Shown here: in pieces, positions 26,436-39,607 of the stretch | How the letters are laid out: the number at the start of each line of letters is the position of its first letter | How positions within the stretch are numbered: the first letter of the stretch is position 1 | Program-made: the position numbers and the translations under genes | NCBI GenBank assembly: GCA_029865605.1 | Contig: JAOUGE010000001.1 | Coordinates: forward strand, 83,840 to 123,533 | DNA from: Candidatus Berkelbacteria bacterium | GTDB lineage: Bacteria; Patescibacteriota; UBA1384; DTJR01 | Reading direction: 5' to 3' | Length of the DNA stretch: 39,694 nucleotides | The notes under the pieces: model-generated | Databases searched by the model: none | Told to the model about the DNA's origin: nothing | The model's input: the letters and a program-made list of their open reading frames with translations, nothing else

Positions 26436-27152
26436 TTATCTTGGCATCAGCCGTGGCGGCGGGCAGTAACTACCCTGGCAAAATCCTCGCCTTGGTATTT
26501 CATCGGTGATGCCGATGGCCTCGATGGTGCTGTCGTTTCTTGGGCCAATTACACTTACGATCGCGCCGGATTTTAAATCCGCCCCTGTCTTGGTATCGTC
26601 GTTTATTTTAACCGTCCAAGTCTTGCCTGTGGGATCGTCCATCATAATATTTCCTTCTTCAACTTTGGTTATCTTACCAATCGTTACTAGCCCTCTTCTG
26701 CCAGGGAGAAATCTGCCTTGTCGCTCATAAATCCGGCGAGCAGCAGTTCTGTTGGCAATATATTCATTTATTCCGGATGCTTCGGCAACAAAATACCCAC
26801 CCGCAAGCGAGACGACAATGATTATGACCAAAACATAAGGTTTTCGGTATAAAGTAGATATTTTTTTTGAAAGAAGATATACCCCGACGACGACCAAGAC
26901 AAAAACTACAATCAGTTCCCACGGGAGACCCAGAAAAGATCTTAAATAGTGATATGGAGTGGCCCGCGGCAGAGGAGGAAGAGCGTTAAAATTGGCTATT
27001 ATATAAACTATTGCCCCGAGAAGAAAGACAGAAACGATCCAGCCGGCCATAACCAATAATTCCTTGGTGATATCAACTCCCAAGAACTGCCAGTAGGGTT
27101 TTGGCTTTCTGGTTTCGATTCCTTTTTTGATTTTGTCTTCTAATTCACCCAT
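26436..27152 (-). CDS. Multi-TM protein with C-terminal OB-like domain; candidate anti-sigma partner
   Basis: Overlaps the 3' end of the sigma factor gene; soluble N-terminus, TM helices, then GKITKVEEGNIMMDDPTGKTWTVKINDDTKTGADLKSGAIVSVIGPRND. Confidence 0.55.
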   Translation of the reverse strand: MGELEDKIKKGIETRKPKPYWQFLGVDITKELLVMAGWIVSVFLLGAIVYIIANFNALPPLPRATPYHYLRSFLGLPWELIVVFVLVVVGVYLLSKKISTLYRKPYVLVIIIVVSLAGGYFVAEASGINEYIANRTAARRIYERQGRFLPGRRGLVTIGKITKVEEGNIMMDDPTGKTWTVKINDDTKTGADLKSGAIVSVIGPRNDSTIEAIGITDEIPRRGFCQGSYCPPPRLMPR

Positions 27153-27687
27153 ATTTTTTGATTATTTTCTTGAGTTTTTCTCGCGAACGTTTTATTGTCG
27201 GCCCAACCGAATTGACGGAGATCTCTAGAATGTCGGCGATTTCAAGGTAGGACTTTTCTTCAAAATAGGTAAGCTCAAGAATTTCTCTATCTCTGGGGTT
27301 TAGCTTGAGTAGGCTATCTCTTACCATTTTTGCGTTTTCTTTTTCTAAAATTTTACTTAAGGCGGGGCTATCGTCGATTAGCTTGTTTTTTATCTCGTCA
27401 GAGAATTCTACTTGGCGGTAACGGTAATGTTTCTTGATGTAGTTAACCGCCTCGTTATGGGCGATTCGGTAAAGCCACGACGAAAACTTAAGCTTTGGGT
27501 TAAAAGAGGCAATATTGACATAAGCTTTAATAAACGCTTCTTGGGTGATGTCTTCAGAATCAGGCCAATTGCCCGTCAGACGGGCGATATAAGCGCGGAT
27601 TTTTTGGGCGTATTTGCCAACTAATGGATCGAAATATTTCTTGTTCCGTACAGTTAGCCTGGCCAGCTCCTCGTCGGAATAATCCAT
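27145..27687 (-). CDS. ECF-type sigma-70 family RNA polymerase sigma factor
   Basis: NWPDSEDITQEAFIKAYVNIASFNPKLKFSSWLYRIAHNEAVNYIKK and LNPRDREILELTYFEEKSYLEIADILEISVNSVGPTIKRSREKLKK. Confidence 0.95.
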   Translation of the reverse strand: MDYSDEELARLTVRNKKYFDPLVGKYAQKIRAYIARLTGNWPDSEDITQEAFIKAYVNIASFNPKLKFSSWLYRIAHNEAVNYIKKHYRYRQVEFSDEIKNKLIDDSPALSKILEKENAKMVRDSLLKLNPRDREILELTYFEEKSYLEIADILEISVNSVGPTIKRSREKLKKIIKKYG

Positions 27688-33935: not shown

Positions 33936-34580
33936 TTACCGCCACCAGCGCTTTTTTTCGGTTTCGAGCTCTTTAAGCTTTCCCCAAAGCTCCTTTTGCT
34001 CTCGGCTTATTTTTTTGGGCATTTTGATCCTTACTCCCAAAATCAGATCACCCCTTTGCCCCCTGCGCGCTTCTCGTCCCTTGCCTCTGAATCTAAATTG
34101 AGTGCCGTCTTGAGTTCCGGCGGGAATTTCAAAATCGATTTTTTCTCCGCCGACATTTAACTCGAGATGATCTCCCAGAACGGCTTGGACGGGAGAAATT
34201 TCCACTTCTGCCTGAACAGTCGAAAAAGCTTGGGAAAAAAGATCGCCGAAGATATCACCTAGACCCCCGAGGCCTCCGAAATTATATTCAAAACCTCTAC
34301 CACCGAGGTCGCTAAAGTCGAAACCGTAGCTTCCCGATCTAGCGTCTCCAAAACCTCCCGCTCCAGCGCTGGAAAAACCTGCCGAGCCGAAGGTATCGTA
34401 CTGTTGGCGTTTTTGGGGATCGGAAAGAATTTGGTATGCTTCGTTAATCTCTTTGAATTTTTCTCCATCGCCGCCGCCACGGTCTGGATGGCATTGCAAA
34501 GCCAGCTTTCGGTAAGCTTTTTTAATCTCGTCTTGGGAGGCGCCTTTGGAGACGCCTAAAACATCGTAATAGTCTTTCAT
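33936..34580 (-). CDS. dnaJ: Short DnaJ-family co-chaperone lacking the Cys-rich zinc-finger domain
   Basis: [52 protein letters not shown] (J domain, HPD), G/F-rich region, C-terminal beta domain; no CxxCxGxG repeats. Confidence 0.88.
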
Positions 34581-34595
34581 AGGTTAGTCACCAAT

Positions 34596-34624
34596 ATTTT
34601 ACAGATAAAATATCTGTATGTAAA
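34596..34624 (-). promoter_or_regulatory. dnaJ promoter TTTACA-N17-TAAAAT
   Basis: Minus strand -35 at 34619-34624 and -10 at 34596-34601. Confidence 0.55.
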
Positions 34625-34636
34625 GAGAACTTTACA
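34619..34636. promoter_or_regulatory. Chaperone operator candidate, copy 1 (dnaJ)
   Basis: TGTAAAG-AGAA-CTTTACA, perfect 7-bp inverted arms overlapping the dnaJ -35. Confidence 0.6.
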
Positions 34637-35327
34637 ATGACTGGTTTAGAATATTGCCTGGAGTGGCGGGCGAAGCTGTTGGTGCACTCGAGGTTGCATC
34701 AACCTGCTGGGAAGCAATTATCTGACCGCCGGAATCAACTAGATCAATCTTCCAAGAGCTTTCCTGGAGACCGATTGTGGTTCGCACCGCTAAAGATGCG
34801 TTCTGTCCGGTCGTCCCGGCAGCTAAGAAAGTAGTATAAGCGCTAAAGTAAGTTGTGGTGGGGAGCTGCTTGGTAGTTATACAGGCAATTTCCCCTTCGT
34901 AATCTTTGCGGACGGCAAAAAATCTCTTTCTTTCACCCCGGATTTGGTCAAAATAGACAATCCAATACCAATCTTTCAGCTTTTCTTCTGGTGAAGTGAA
35001 GAAAAAGTATTGGTTGGCTTGAGCAATATTTTCTGAACCGAATTCAATCAGGGCGGAGCAAAATTGGGCCTGATTTTTCAACGGGCTGTTGGCAATTTGC
35101 TTGGCCGTTTCATAATTTTTTTTGAAGGTTTCTTCCAGTTGCGATTGATCGGCGGCGGTTTGGGTGGTTCCGGTGCCAAGCTGGGCCGTTGCTGATCCTG
35201 TTGCGCCAGTTGCGCCGGGGGTTGTACCGGTTTGGCCGGTTGGGGTGGTGGTTTGCGGTTTCGGCGTGCAACCCGACAATGCAATAGCCGTAAGAATACT
35301 AAAAGCTAAGACCAAATATTTCCTCAT
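34632..35327 (-). CDS. Putative lipoprotein
   Basis: MRKYLVLAFSILTAIALSGCTPKPQ is a lipobox signal; Thr/Gly/Ala-rich linker. Confidence 0.8.
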   Translation of the reverse strand: MRKYLVLAFSILTAIALSGCTPKPQTTTPTGQTGTTPGATGATGSATAQLGTGTTQTAADQSQLEETFKKNYETAKQIANSPLKNQAQFCSALIEFGSENIAQANQYFFFTSPEEKLKDWYWIVYFDQIRGERKRFFAVRKDYEGEIACITTKQLPTTTYFSAYTTFLAAGTTGQNASLAVRTTIGLQESSWKIDLVDSGGQIIASQQVDATSSAPTASPATPGNILNQSL

Positions 35328-35352: not shown

Positions 35353-35426
35353 AAAAAGCCCCGCTTCCTGCCTTCAATCCCGCCAGCGGCGGGAAAAAGC
35401 GGCAAAGGCAGGAAGCGGGGCTTTTT
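35353..35426. terminator. Large bidirectional terminator with nested hairpin
   Basis: Perfect 22-bp stem AAAAAGCCCCGCTTCCTGCCTT / AAGGCAGGAAGCGGGGCTTTTT with an inner CCCGCC-AGC-GGCGGG stem. Confidence 0.9.
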
Positions 35427-35437
35427 CTTACGAGAGA

Positions 35438-37321
35438 TTATTTTTTATCTTGATCGGCCTTTTTTTCGTCAGTCTTTGGCTCTTCGGTTTTCTCGTCTTT
35501 CTTGGCTTCTTCTTTGGAACTTGCGCTATAAAGCTCGGAGCCGACTTTTTGGATTATCTCGGACAGCTCCTCGCCGGCTTTCTTTATCTTCTCGGTGTCG
35601 TCAGATTTGAGTGCTTCTTTAGCGGCGTCGATTTTTTCAGTGACGGCTTTGCCGGTTTCGAGCTTCACCTTGTCGCCAGCATCTTTAAGCGCTTTCTCGG
35701 ATGAGTAGATTAGGGTTTCAAGAGCATTTCTGGACTCAACTGCCTCGCGCTTCTTCTTGTCTTCCTCGGCGTGGGCCTCAGCTTCTTTTTGCATCTTTTC
35801 TACCTCTTCTTTGGAAAGGCCGGAAGAAGCCGTGATGGTAATTTTTTGTTCTTTGCTGGTGGCTTTATCTTTGGCTTTGACGTTTAGAATGCCGTTAGCA
35901 TCAATGTCAAAACTTACTTCGATTTGAGGCACACCGCGGGGAGCCGGTGGAATTCCATCCAGAATAAATCTTCCTAGAGTTCTATTATCAGCGGCCATTT
36001 CCCGTTCGCCCTGCAGAACGTGGATTTCAACCTGTGGCTGATTGTCAGCCGCAGTTGAGAAAGTCTGCGATTTTGAGGTTGGGATAGTAGTATTGCGCTC
36101 AATTAGTCTTGTCATAACCGAGCCGAGCGTTTCAATTCCCAAAGACAGGGGGGTAACGTCAAGCAGTAGAAGGTCTTTAACCTCGCCGCCCAAAACTCCG
36201 GCTTGAATTGCCGCTCCGAGTGCGACTGCTTCGTCCGGATTAACGCCCTTTGACGGCTCACGGCCAAAGATTTCCTTAACTTTGTCTTGGATTGCTGGCA
36301 TTCTAGTCATTCCTCCGACGAGAATAACTTCATCTATGTCGGAGGCCGAAACACTGGCGTCTTTTATCGCTTCTTTACAGGGCTTTTCGACACGCTTTAT
36401 TAGATCATCAACCAGCGAGAGCATTTTTGGCCTGGTCAAAGGCATTACTAAATGCTTCGGCCCTGACTGGTCGGCGGTGATAAAGGGCAAGTTGATTTCG
36501 GTCTCCTGTTTGGTTGTCAGCTCAACCTTGGCCTTTTCGGCTGCTTCTTTGGCTCTTTGTAGAGCTGAATTATCGCTTGATAGATCGATTCCCTGCTCTT
36601 TTTTGAACTCTCCAACAATATAGTCCATAATGGCCTGGTCGAAGTCGTCTCCGCCGAGGTGAGTGTCGCCGTTGGTAGATTTGACTTCGAACACGCCATC
36701 GCCAATTTCTAAGATTGTGATGTCAAACGTTCCACCACCCAGGTCAAAGACGGCAACCTTGCCTTCTTTTTTCTTGTCTAGCCCGTAAGCCAGTGCGGCG
36801 GCGGTTGGTTCGTTGATGATTCTCTCCACTTCGAAACCGGCAATCTTTCCGGCATCCTTGGTTGCTTGGCGCTGGGAGTCATTAAAGTAAGCCGGAGTAG
36901 TAATAACCGCTTTTTCGATCTTTTCGCCGATATAGTCCTCGGCGTCCTTTTTGATTTTTTGCAAAATGAAAGCGGAAATTTCCTGCGGAGTATAAGTCTT
37001 ACCGCCCATCTCCACTTCAACTGATTCGTTTTTGCCCTCAACTATTTTGAAGGGCATAAGTTTTTTGTCCTTTTGGACCTCTTCATCAGAGAACCGACGG
37101 CCGATTAGCCTCTTGACGGAGAAAACAGTATTCTCCGGATTTGTAACAGCTTGGCGTTTGGCAAGCTGGCCGACTAGACGCTCTTTTGATTTAGTCGTGG
37201 CGACAATTGATGGAACAATATAGCCACCCTCGGCAGAGGGGACAACTTTCGGTTTCCCGCCCTCAATTATTGCCCCGACCGAGTTGGTAGTACCGAGGTC
37301 AATCCCTAATATCTTACCCAT
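35438..37321 (-). CDS. dnaK: Molecular chaperone DnaK (Hsp70)
   Basis: [85 protein letters not shown]. Confidence 0.99.
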
Positions 37322-37354: not shown

Positions 37355-37383
37355 ATTGTAAAGTATGCTTTACATTTTGTCAA
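37355..37383 (-). promoter_or_regulatory. dnaK promoter TTGACA-N17-TACAAT
   Basis: Minus strand -35 at 37378-37383 and -10 at 37355-37360. Confidence 0.85.
37357..37374. promoter_or_regulatory. Chaperone operator candidate, copy 2 (dnaK)
   Basis: TGTAAAG-TATG-CTTTACA on the plus strand, overlapping the -10 and spacer of the dnaK promoter. Confidence 0.65.
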
Positions 37384-37442: not shown

Positions 37443-37501
37443 GGGGTAAGTCTCGGGGGTTCGAGCGGGGTAAAACCACGTCGGGACTAGGGGCGTGTTT
37501 A

Positions 37502-37861
37502 TCACACGCCGGGGATTGAGAGCTGGGCGGCGGTGGGGAGAGTGTCCAGCTGCTCGAGCGGTATGTCGACTCCGGCCTTGGCTGCCAGCTTCTGGAGATG
37601 TGCAAGAAGGGCGTGTCCCATCTTGCGGTTTGGGTCTGAAGGGTCCGGGTGGGCAGGGATGATTCGGCACAGCCGCTGTGCCGTTCCTCTGACCCATCCA
37701 TCCCCCTTGTCGTTGTTGAGCGGCTCGCACTTGCAGAGATCCCAGGCAACGTCGCCGTGAGACCGCAGCATCTCCTGCTCCAGTAGCTCGACCCAAGAGG
37801 CGGCCTGCAATGCGAGTTCGTCTAGCAGCCACCCTAGCGAGTGCTTCGGCCAGGTGCTCAT
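37502..37861 (-). CDS. Hypothetical protein (GC-rich operon gene 4)
   Basis: MSTWPKHSLGWLLDELALQAASWVELLEQEML...; ATG 4 nt after the stop of the upstream gene, with GAGGAGGG SD. Confidence 0.65.
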   Translation of the reverse strand: MSTWPKHSLGWLLDELALQAASWVELLEQEMLRSHGDVAWDLCKCEPLNNDKGDGWVRGTAQRLCRIIPAHPDPSDPNRKMGHALLAHLQKLAAKAGVDIPLEQLDTLPTAAQLSIPGV

Positions 37862-37865
37862 TCCC

Positions 37866-38609
37866 TTAGCCCTCCTCTTCATCGGGGACGATGAGCTGTG
37901 TGACTGTGCCGGGTGTCGGTCCATCCTCGGCGAATGGGTCGTCACTGTCTGCGGGGCTGATGAGCCCGAGCTTGATCAGCTCGCCGACGATCTGCTCTGC
38001 TGCAGCAGTTGGGTTCTCGACGGTGAGCTGTTGGGCGGTGTAGTCGACGAGCTGGTCTTGGTCGGCACCGGCCTCGGCTAGCTCTTCGAGATAGGTCGCG
38101 ATGGTCTCGTCGAGCTCTCTGTCGTCGCCCACTTCTGCGAGTAGCTCGTCGAGCGCAGTTACCAGCGGGTCCTTGCTGCACAGTATATGCTTGATCGTCT
38201 CGAGTGCCTCGACTGCGGAGATGGTGAGGGGGAAGCCACCGTACCTGATATGGAGGCGCGAGTGGTTTCCGGGGAGGACCTCGTTGACGACCAGCCAGTA
38301 GGTCCGCCCGACGGTGGAGCGCTCGTAGCCCCTGATTGCCTCTGCGAGTTTCGCCTCGGGGCAGTTGTGGTGCTCGCAGCGATCAGCGGAGATACCGAGC
38401 GATTCCACCGCGCGGGTTAGCTGACTGACTGTCTCCAAAGCTTGCTTGCCAGGGCGTTCTACGGTCTTCTCGCCCATGAGGTAGAGAACAGAGTCTTCGT
38501 CTTGCTGATCCTTGCCGGGGACGAGTAGGATGATTCGTATGTCATCCTCGCCAGCGAGAAGCTTATCAAGCTCTCGTTGCACGTCGGAGAACTCTAGGCA
38601 GAAGACCAC
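37866..38609 (-). CDS. Acidic hypothetical protein (GC-rich operon gene 3)
   Basis: 247 aa; GTG start 8 nt after AAGGAGGT. Confidence 0.65.
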   Translation of the reverse strand: MVFCLEFSDVQRELDKLLAGEDDIRIILLVPGKDQQDEDSVLYLMGEKTVERPGKQALETVSQLTRAVESLGISADRCEHHNCPEAKLAEAIRGYERSTVGRTYWLVVNEVLPGNHSRLHIRYGGFPLTISAVEALETIKHILCSKDPLVTALDELLAEVGDDRELDETIATYLEELAEAGADQDQLVDYTAQQLTVENPTAAAEQIVGELIKLGLISPADSDDPFAEDGPTPGTVTQLIVPDEEEG

Positions 38610-38637
38610 TTTGCCCTACCTCCTTCTTGGTGTGGGT

Positions 38638-39093
38638 TCAGTAGCGGACGAGCTCCGGTTCCTCGACGGTCTGCTGGATGCCGGGGCCGGGACGGAAACG
38701 GAGGTGCTGGCCGGCGCGCGGCATTTGGCCGTTGACCTTGAAGCCAGGCGGGATGAAGAGAAGGAAGTGCCCCGCTCTGACCCTTCTCACACCCTCGTCT
38801 TCTGCCTGCGCCGGTTGGATGCAGCCATAGAGAGCCGTGTTCCGACCGGCGAAGTGGCTCTCCGCACATACCTTGCAGATCTTGCGCCGGTCTCCCGGCT
38901 TCGCCGGGTCAGTTGGGTCGTCGGCGAAGCAGCCATCTGTTGCTCCGCACTTGGCGCAGATGATCGTACCGCCCCTGTGAAGTCTGCCTTCGCAGGCGGC
39001 GCAGAGGTTACCCTTCCCGGGGTTAGCGGAGAACATCATGTAACCCAATGGTACTTCGCAGTGGCAGTGGGTGCACTGTCTCGCCTTTCTCAT
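38638..39093 (-). CDS. Multi-zinc-ribbon-like hypothetical protein (GC-rich operon gene 2)
   Basis: MRKARQCTHCHCEVPLGY...LCAACEGRL...IICAKCGATDGC...KICKVCAESH; ATG after AAAGGAGGTCAACTG. Confidence 0.7.
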   Translation of the reverse strand: MRKARQCTHCHCEVPLGYMMFSANPGKGNLCAACEGRLHRGGTIICAKCGATDGCFADDPTDPAKPGDRRKICKVCAESHFAGRNTALYGCIQPAQAEDEGVRRVRAGHFLLFIPPGFKVNGQMPRAGQHLRFRPGPGIQQTVEEPELVRY

Positions 39094-39493
39094 CAGTTGA
39101 CCTCCTTTCGGGGCGTGGTCTGAAGCGCTTGGGACGGCCGGAGGCCGTCCTGGTCGGGTTGGGAGGACAGGGGCCTCGATCTCTGGGGTGCCGGGGGTCT
39201 TCAAACCAAGCGTTGCGTTCGTCGATTTGCTGGATGAGGCGGGTAATCTCGTCAGGACCGCCAAAGACGCCTGTGAATCCGCCGCAGACCCCTCGGTAGA
39301 GAAGACAGGTGTAGATACCCTGCCAGGGTCGCGTTCGTCGAAGCCACAACCTTGAATCGTTGAGCGTGTGGGAGCCGATATCATACTTCCACGGGTTGGT
39401 GGCGACGTAGATCTCGCCCCGGTACTCGATCAGCGCGGGCGTATCGTGGGAGAGATCGGACAGCCGGCGGATTGCTTTGGGGGCGATCTCCAT
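39023..39493 (-). CDS. Hypothetical protein (GC-rich operon gene 1)
   Basis: MEIAPKAIRRLSDLSHDTPALIEYRGEIYVATNPWKYDIG...; ATG after AAAGGAGGTGGCGA. The 3' end overlaps gene 2 by 71 nt, so the C-terminus is less certain. Confidence 0.55.
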   Translation of the reverse strand: MEIAPKAIRRLSDLSHDTPALIEYRGEIYVATNPWKYDIGSHTLNDSRLWLRRTRPWQGIYTCLLYRGVCGGFTGVFGGPDEITRLIQQIDERNAWFEDPRHPRDRGPCPPNPTRTASGRPKRFRPRPERRSTDEKGETVHPLPLRSTIGLHDVLR

Positions 39494-39607
39494 TCGCCAC
39501 CTCCTTTCAAGGTGCAGTGTCGTCGCTTTACAGAGTTGAGCAAAGAGTAGAACAAACTTGAAACGAATTCAAGCTAGAGACTGGAGACTATAGGCCGGAG
39601 GGTGACA

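Follow-up and report, generated by a model that had tools for sequence, protein, structure and literature searches.

A palindrome shared by the dnaK and dnaJ promoters of Candidatus Berkelbacteria, the probable operator of an HTH-Hsp20 heat-shock repressor

The stretch of Candidatus Berkelbacteria DNA analyzed here (39,694 nucleotides, hereafter the window) carries an 18-bp palindrome upstream of both dnaK and dnaJ, which raises the question of whether a shared operator co-regulates the two genes and, if so, which protein would bind it.

The palindrome and the layout of the dnaK-dnaJ region

The sequence TGTAAAG-AGAA-CTTTACA occupies positions 34619–34636 upstream of dnaJ, and TGTAAAG-TATG-CTTTACA occupies positions 37357–37374 upstream of dnaK. 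As a preliminary description of this DNA had claimed, the arms of both copies are perfect and agree in every base, and the four central positions differ throughout. The dnaJ promoter (34596–34624, minus strand) was read from the sequence as a −35 hexamer TTTACA (34624–34619), a 17-bp spacer and a −10 hexamer TAAAAT (34601–34596), the −35 hexamer being part of the operator, again in agreement with the earlier reading. The dnaK promoter (37355–37383, minus strand), likewise read from the sequence, consists of TTGACA (−35, 37383–37378), a 17-bp spacer and TACAAT (−10, 37360–37355); here most of the operator lies inside the spacer, and the final four operator bases are also the beginning of the −10 element. 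The same dnaJ site was present in 8 relatives, and 36 separate instances of the dnaK site were counted in the class.

Downstream of these promoters, dnaJ (33936–34580, minus strand) encodes 214 amino acids with Pfam matches to the DnaJ domain and its C-terminal domain (PF00226, PF01556) and no zinc-finger match in the Pfam search, and dnaK (35438–37321, minus strand) encodes 627 amino acids matching NF001413/TIGR02350 above the cut-off. The separation of the two genes by another gene and a strong terminator was also seen: a 231-aa ORF for a probable lipoprotein (34632–35327, minus strand), with no family above the cut-off in a family profile search, shares the 5 bp at its 3′ end with the dnaJ operator, and a hairpin with a 20-bp stem and flanking A/T tracts (35353–35426) lies between dnaK and this ORF. 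Directly upstream of dnaK, at the contig end, the G+C content of positions 37500–39500 rises to ~61% compared to ~45% around them, and the ORFs in this stretch had no Pfam matches; it is possibly foreign DNA or a mis-assembly.

A single perfect 7-bp palindrome is uninformative here because the window contains 12 of them with a 4-nt loop. The TGTAAAG arm alone recurs, and a recurring arm appeared in none of 60 Markov-1 simulated windows, which puts the pair well outside chance expectation. The preliminary description had also proposed a further regulatory site, ACAGATA-AAA-TATCTGT, which is indeed present in the dnaJ promoter spacer (34601–34617). No further copy with fewer than 2 mismatches was found genome-wide, with the reversed control scoring equally often, and the sequence was missing from the dnaJ promoters of the 8 relatives that keep the TGTAAAG site. 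Because it is unique, unconserved and one of 11 perfect 7-bp palindromes with a 3-nt loop in the window alone, we rejected it as an operator and judged it a chance occurrence.

Operator copies and the HTH-Hsp20 fusion across the genome and the class

A genome-wide scan, which had been suggested for both palindromes, placed the TGTAAAG site at five heat-shock-type loci. The host genome (G000; 794 kb, 92% complete) contains three perfect and two one-mismatch copies of TGTAAAG-N4-CTTTACA, and the degenerate pattern TGTMAAGNNNNCTTKACA gave 5 matches compared to 0 for its reversed control. These copies precede dnaJ, dnaK, groES-groEL, a clpP gene located downstream of the trigger factor gene, and a gene on contig 12. 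Both one-mismatch copies, at groES-groEL and clpP, change CTTTACA to CTTGACA, an arm that is also a consensus −35 hexamer. A two-mismatch copy at C6:46069 was taken as chance; there is no plausible gene downstream of it, and its surroundings look like rRNA. A dedicated heat-shock sigma factor was rejected as a candidate: the genome yielded just two sigma70-type factors, a 370-aa ORF and an ECF-size one of 181 aa with sigma70 region 2, the latter within the window (27145–27687). A heat-shock sigma factor may nevertheless be a further input.

The third perfect copy lies 8 bp upstream of an ORF outside the window (G000:C12:70067-70798) that encodes, in one open frame of 243 amino acids, an XRE-type helix-turn-helix domain (HTH_3, residues 9–62) and an HSP20 domain (residues 131–229). 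In the Pfam search HTH_3 scored 48.9 bits (cut-off 23) and PF00011 80.4 bits (cut-off 20.8), and the HTH_3/HTH_31/HTH_19 and HSP20 families were the only matches. In a separate sequence comparison the HTH matched CylR2 at E=1.8e-9. The layout is a CylR2-like XRE HTH (~1–68), a flexible linker (~70–122) and an Hsp20/alpha-crystallin domain (~125–230). An AlphaFold model built from a 29-sequence alignment had pLDDT >90 over most of the HTH and crystallin domain and <50 in the linker, confidently predicting an HTH and a crystallin fold joined by a disordered linker, and the best PDB fold matches of the crystallin domain were small heat-shock proteins. A search for a co-conserved HTH regulator gene ended at this fusion, with the operator at its own promoter; of the small, dimeric HTH regulator that had been foreseen, the HTH stood, and the simple small protein gave way to an HTH-Hsp20 fusion. 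No description of such a regulator, or of Berkelbacteria heat-shock control, was found in the open-access literature, and as far as that literature goes it is previously undescribed.

We then considered a class set of 55 genomes from 25 families, the named relatives being mostly Candidatus Berkelbacteria. The fusion was uninterrupted in ~41 of the 55 genomes and in most families, and trimmed or cut forms were present in three more. In all 29 loci fetched by protein search the site lay directly upstream of the fusion, with 13–14 of 14 arm letters. The pattern TGTMAAGNNNNCTTKACA matched in 49 of the 55 genomes, with one match for the reversed control. Among 149 distinct class sites, 130 stand before fusion, chaperone or protease genes (fusion 37, dnaK 36, groES/EL 24, clpP 11, dnaJ 9, clpB/C-type ATPase 7, grpE 4, hsp20 1, ftsH 1), and the others before genes for a metallophosphoesterase (4), an ABC ATPase (4), nusA (2), a CopG-like protein (1) or nothing recognizable (8). 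The metallophosphoesterase, ABC ATPase and nusA targets have no evident heat-shock role, which counts against a pure heat-shock regulon. Examples, restricted to some families, are an ABC-transporter ATPase gene (L080, L095, L158) and a calcineurin-like phosphoesterase gene (L086, L155, L160) behind the operator. Over 140 sites the arms were nearly invariant and the center was free, an invariance that is partly due to selection, since only sites with at least 13 of the 14 arm letters were taken. Footprinting in sister genomes, another check suggested at the outset, showed the motif conserved at both the dnaK (36 cases) and dnaJ (9) promoters. Co-regulation of dnaK and dnaJ by a shared operator, as originally claimed, is strongly supported by the conserved motif, the conserved targets and the matching regulator.

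Sites and regulator also occurred together: all 44 regulator-bearing genomes had sites, and 6 of 11 genomes lacking the regulator had none (Fisher p=1.6e-5, a value that, like the other class p-values, ignores kinship and overstates independence). The five genomes with one or two sites and no detected regulator (G019, G003, G031, G052 and G053) are drafts, 71–95% complete, and at 95% for G019 a gap is not certain. In G019 (L107, L108) and G003 (L059, L124) the operator stands at clpP/clpC or dnaK/dnaJ with no detectable HTH-Hsp20 gene, pointing either to an assembly gap or to another regulator. Beyond the class set, at least 25 of 80 loci kept from the named-genome matches listed have both domains in one ORF, and the lineage-named fusion loci among the matches listed belong to Berkelbacteria, WS2 or unclassified Patescibacteria; the fusion may occur outside the class.

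Proposed mechanism and its alternatives

Taken together, these results make it quite probable that an autoregulated HTH-Hsp20 heat-shock repressor, found throughout Candidatus Berkelbacteria, has the palindrome as its operator and would sense unfolded protein through its chaperone domain. The operator, its targets, its co-occurrence with the regulator and the absence of HrcA and CIRCE described below come from sequence, and the specificity of the HTH from association; DNA binding, repression, the heat response and the unfolded-protein signal we infer. A dimer of the fusion would sit on TGTAAAG-N4-CTTTACA, covering either the spacer together with the beginning of the −10 element or else the −35 element, and would block RNA polymerase. 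From what is known of the two families, repression would be expected of an HTH_3 dimer bound to an 18-bp palindrome that overlaps promoter elements, and binding of unfolded protein and exchange of subunits would be expected of a crystallin domain. Under heat stress, the crystallin domain would bind unfolded protein or oligomerize, and either event would pull the repressor off the DNA, inducing dnaK, dnaJ, groESL, clpP, clpB/C, grpE and the regulator itself, until newly made regulator restored repression after the unfolded protein had been cleared.

The fusion gene appeared to hold a second start. Nearly every fusion has a methionine at the boundary between linker and Hsp20 domain (here, residue 87), and 3–10 nt upstream of it lies a Shine-Dalgarno sequence, for example AAAGGAGG; internal in-frame ATG codons of this kind were found in L005:3068-3799 and its relatives L013–L040. 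A Shine-Dalgarno match of at least 6 nt preceded the boundary methionine in 26 of 30 genes, compared to 1 of 137 other internal methionines, and synonymous codon resampling that left the amino acids unchanged gave 7.5 such matches on average and 16 at most. In L027 the boundary methionine is residue 112 with a 7-nt match; the internal start of this genome is weaker (AAGGGAG, a 4-nt match). Because the conserved internal start codon lies behind a strong Shine-Dalgarno sequence, we predict a free Hsp20, and the gene probably gives two products, the repressor and this Hsp20. The first start codon had a Shine-Dalgarno match of at least 5 nt in only 2 of 36 fusions and lay no more than 13 nt from the operator in 19 of 36, that is, often ~6 nt behind the −10 element, so that many full-length messages look nearly leaderless.

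A fuller version of the proposal, which we hold with belief and doubt in equal measure, is a one-protein proteostasis sensor: the crystallin domain of the repressor itself would capture unfolded protein and free the heat-shock promoters, the same gene would yield free Hsp20 from the conserved internal start and a full-length protein from an often nearly leaderless message, and the system would have replaced HrcA/CIRCE at the base of Berkelbacteria through fusion of a widespread CylR2-like autoregulator to Hsp20 and spread of its operator to chaperone and protease genes.

The strongest alternative, which we consider unlikely though deserving of serious weight, keeps the same regulator and operator and denies the crystallin domain its role as sensor: a plain repressor would be inactivated by thermal unfolding of the HTH, by ATP-dependent proteolysis, or by titration by DnaK or GroEL in the manner of HspR or HrcA, with Hsp20 joined to it only for co-expression. 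Two natural variants, in G009 (L051:1608-2060) and G026 (L144:1944-2375), speak for it, having kept the HTH, the linker and the last strands and lost most of the crystallin domain, so that the chaperone domain is not indispensable; the operator is absent upstream of the G026 gene. These variants warn that, at least there, signals other than client binding may suffice. The internal start could moreover give a free Hsp20 without any role for the fusion, and the presence of clpP and clpB/C among the targets would allow proteolytic feedback. However, wherever the uninterrupted fusion has been maintained across the class the crystallin domain is intact nearly always, and standalone Hsp20 genes exist, making fusion for co-expression alone unnecessary.

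That a different, unfused protein binds the palindrome, with the fusion gene merely another target of its regulon, is improbable. A second HTH of the same family in G030 and a few other genomes, and the five genomes with sites and no fusion, would agree with it, but the fusion is the only member of its HTH family found in G000, G002, G004, G005, G013 and G036. Also against it, and the strongest, independent evidence for the main reading that the HTH of the fusion recognizes the site, are 54 unfused relatives of this HTH (L203–L256), chosen by protein similarity alone from Firmicutes, Chloroflexi, Paceibacterota and others: for 43 of them the palindrome lay no more than 320 bp upstream of the relative's gene, whereas it occurred in 0.2% of shuffled stretches and in 16 of 598 control stretches. 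Because unfused relatives carry it upstream of their own genes, the operator is best assigned to this CylR2-like HTH, and the unfused CylR2-like XRE proteins with TGTAAAG-N4-CTTTACA would make up an autoregulatory module that is widespread and keeps a single operator. Such unfused regulators often stand beside a small membrane-protein-like ORF. The operator specificity is thus an old property of the CylR2-like HTH family and points to domain capture, in which an autoregulatory HTH gene was joined to hsp20 and the operator then spread to heat-shock genes, the order of these steps being deduced.

Slightly less probable again is activation in place of repression. The site touches the −35 element at dnaJ and also at groES and clpP of this genome, as the sites of some activators do. 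The operator overlapped recognizable promoter elements at 110 of 140 class sites, 17 of them with this −35 geometry (7 of the 9 dnaJ sites among them). At 93 of the 140, however, it covers the spacer and the first four −10 bases of an otherwise good TTGACA promoter, a geometry shared by 31 of the 36 dnaK sites, the fusion gene and most groES genes of the class, and a protein bound there would exclude polymerase; both geometries fit repression by polymerase exclusion. A mere A/T-rich promoter element or a chance repeat would explain the overlap with −35 or −10 hexamers, but the symmetric 7-bp arms (near-invariance partly reflecting selection) around a variable center speak against it, and it is already refuted by enrichment limited to one class and to heat-shock genes and by the palindrome at unfused relatives.

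Relation to known heat-shock systems

HrcA and its operator CIRCE were rejected as the system behind the palindrome, both being absent from the class. HrcA (PF01628) was found in none of the 55 class genomes compared to 57 of 64 others in the phylum, with control genomes as expected (p about 1e-26, with independence overstated as the genomes are related). CIRCE, whose consensus is TTAGCACTC-N9-GAGTGCTAA (PMC7464140), was matched at no more than 2 mismatches in none of the 55 class genomes and in 47 of the 64 others. Conversely, the exact TGTAAAG palindrome was present in 31 of 36 class genomes compared to 6 of 344 other phylum genomes. This contrast between class and phylum counts as one event or a few, and it appears that the HTH-Hsp20 regulator took over the job of HrcA in Berkelbacteria. 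Both systems place an inverted-repeat operator at the dnaK and groES promoters under a presumed repressor controlled by chaperone supply; the DNA-binding protein and operator are unrelated, and the fusion carries its own chaperone domain.

With HspR, whose HAIR operator is CTTGAGT-N7-ACTCAAG (PMC7464140), the fusion would share autoregulated repression of dnaK-type operons through an inverted repeat. In contrast to HspR, its DNA-binding domain matches HTH_3 (XRE) and not the MerR type, all five loci carry TGTAAAG-N4-CTTTACA or its one-mismatch form and not HAIR, and the chaperone is covalently joined where HspR has a separate partner. Small XRE regulators of the CylR2/PbsX type (PDB 1utx, 9k3w) share the HTH family, by sequence, and the same operator, but at the loci examined the unfused proteins are of ~66 aa, stand beside membrane-protein-like ORFs and away from heat-shock genes, and have no chaperone joined to them. 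The gamma-proteobacterial small heat-shock protein IbpA, which represses the mRNA that encodes it (PMC10474464), is likewise at once a sensor and a regulator controlling its own production, whereas it acts on translation by binding mRNA and the fusion is proposed to act on transcription through its joined DNA-binding domain. By an HTH_3 domain above the cut-off and the palindrome at its own promoter the fusion belongs with the CylR2-like XRE regulators, and by its alpha-crystallin domain (PF00011) with Hsp20. On this sequence-based comparison it would work like the HrcA or HspR systems and belong to neither, as a repressor of the chaperone-linked type.

To our knowledge, the known heat-shock repressors HrcA, HspR and CtsR are each controlled by a chaperone or protease that is a different protein, and a regulator and chaperone in one polypeptide would be an unusual feature among chaperone-linked heat-shock repressors. 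The parts are small and well defined, making the mechanism accessible to tests in vitro or in E. coli that require no culture of the organism itself. For the uncultured Berkelbacteria, the system would clearly exemplify how, in an entire class, one regulatory system has taken the place of another.
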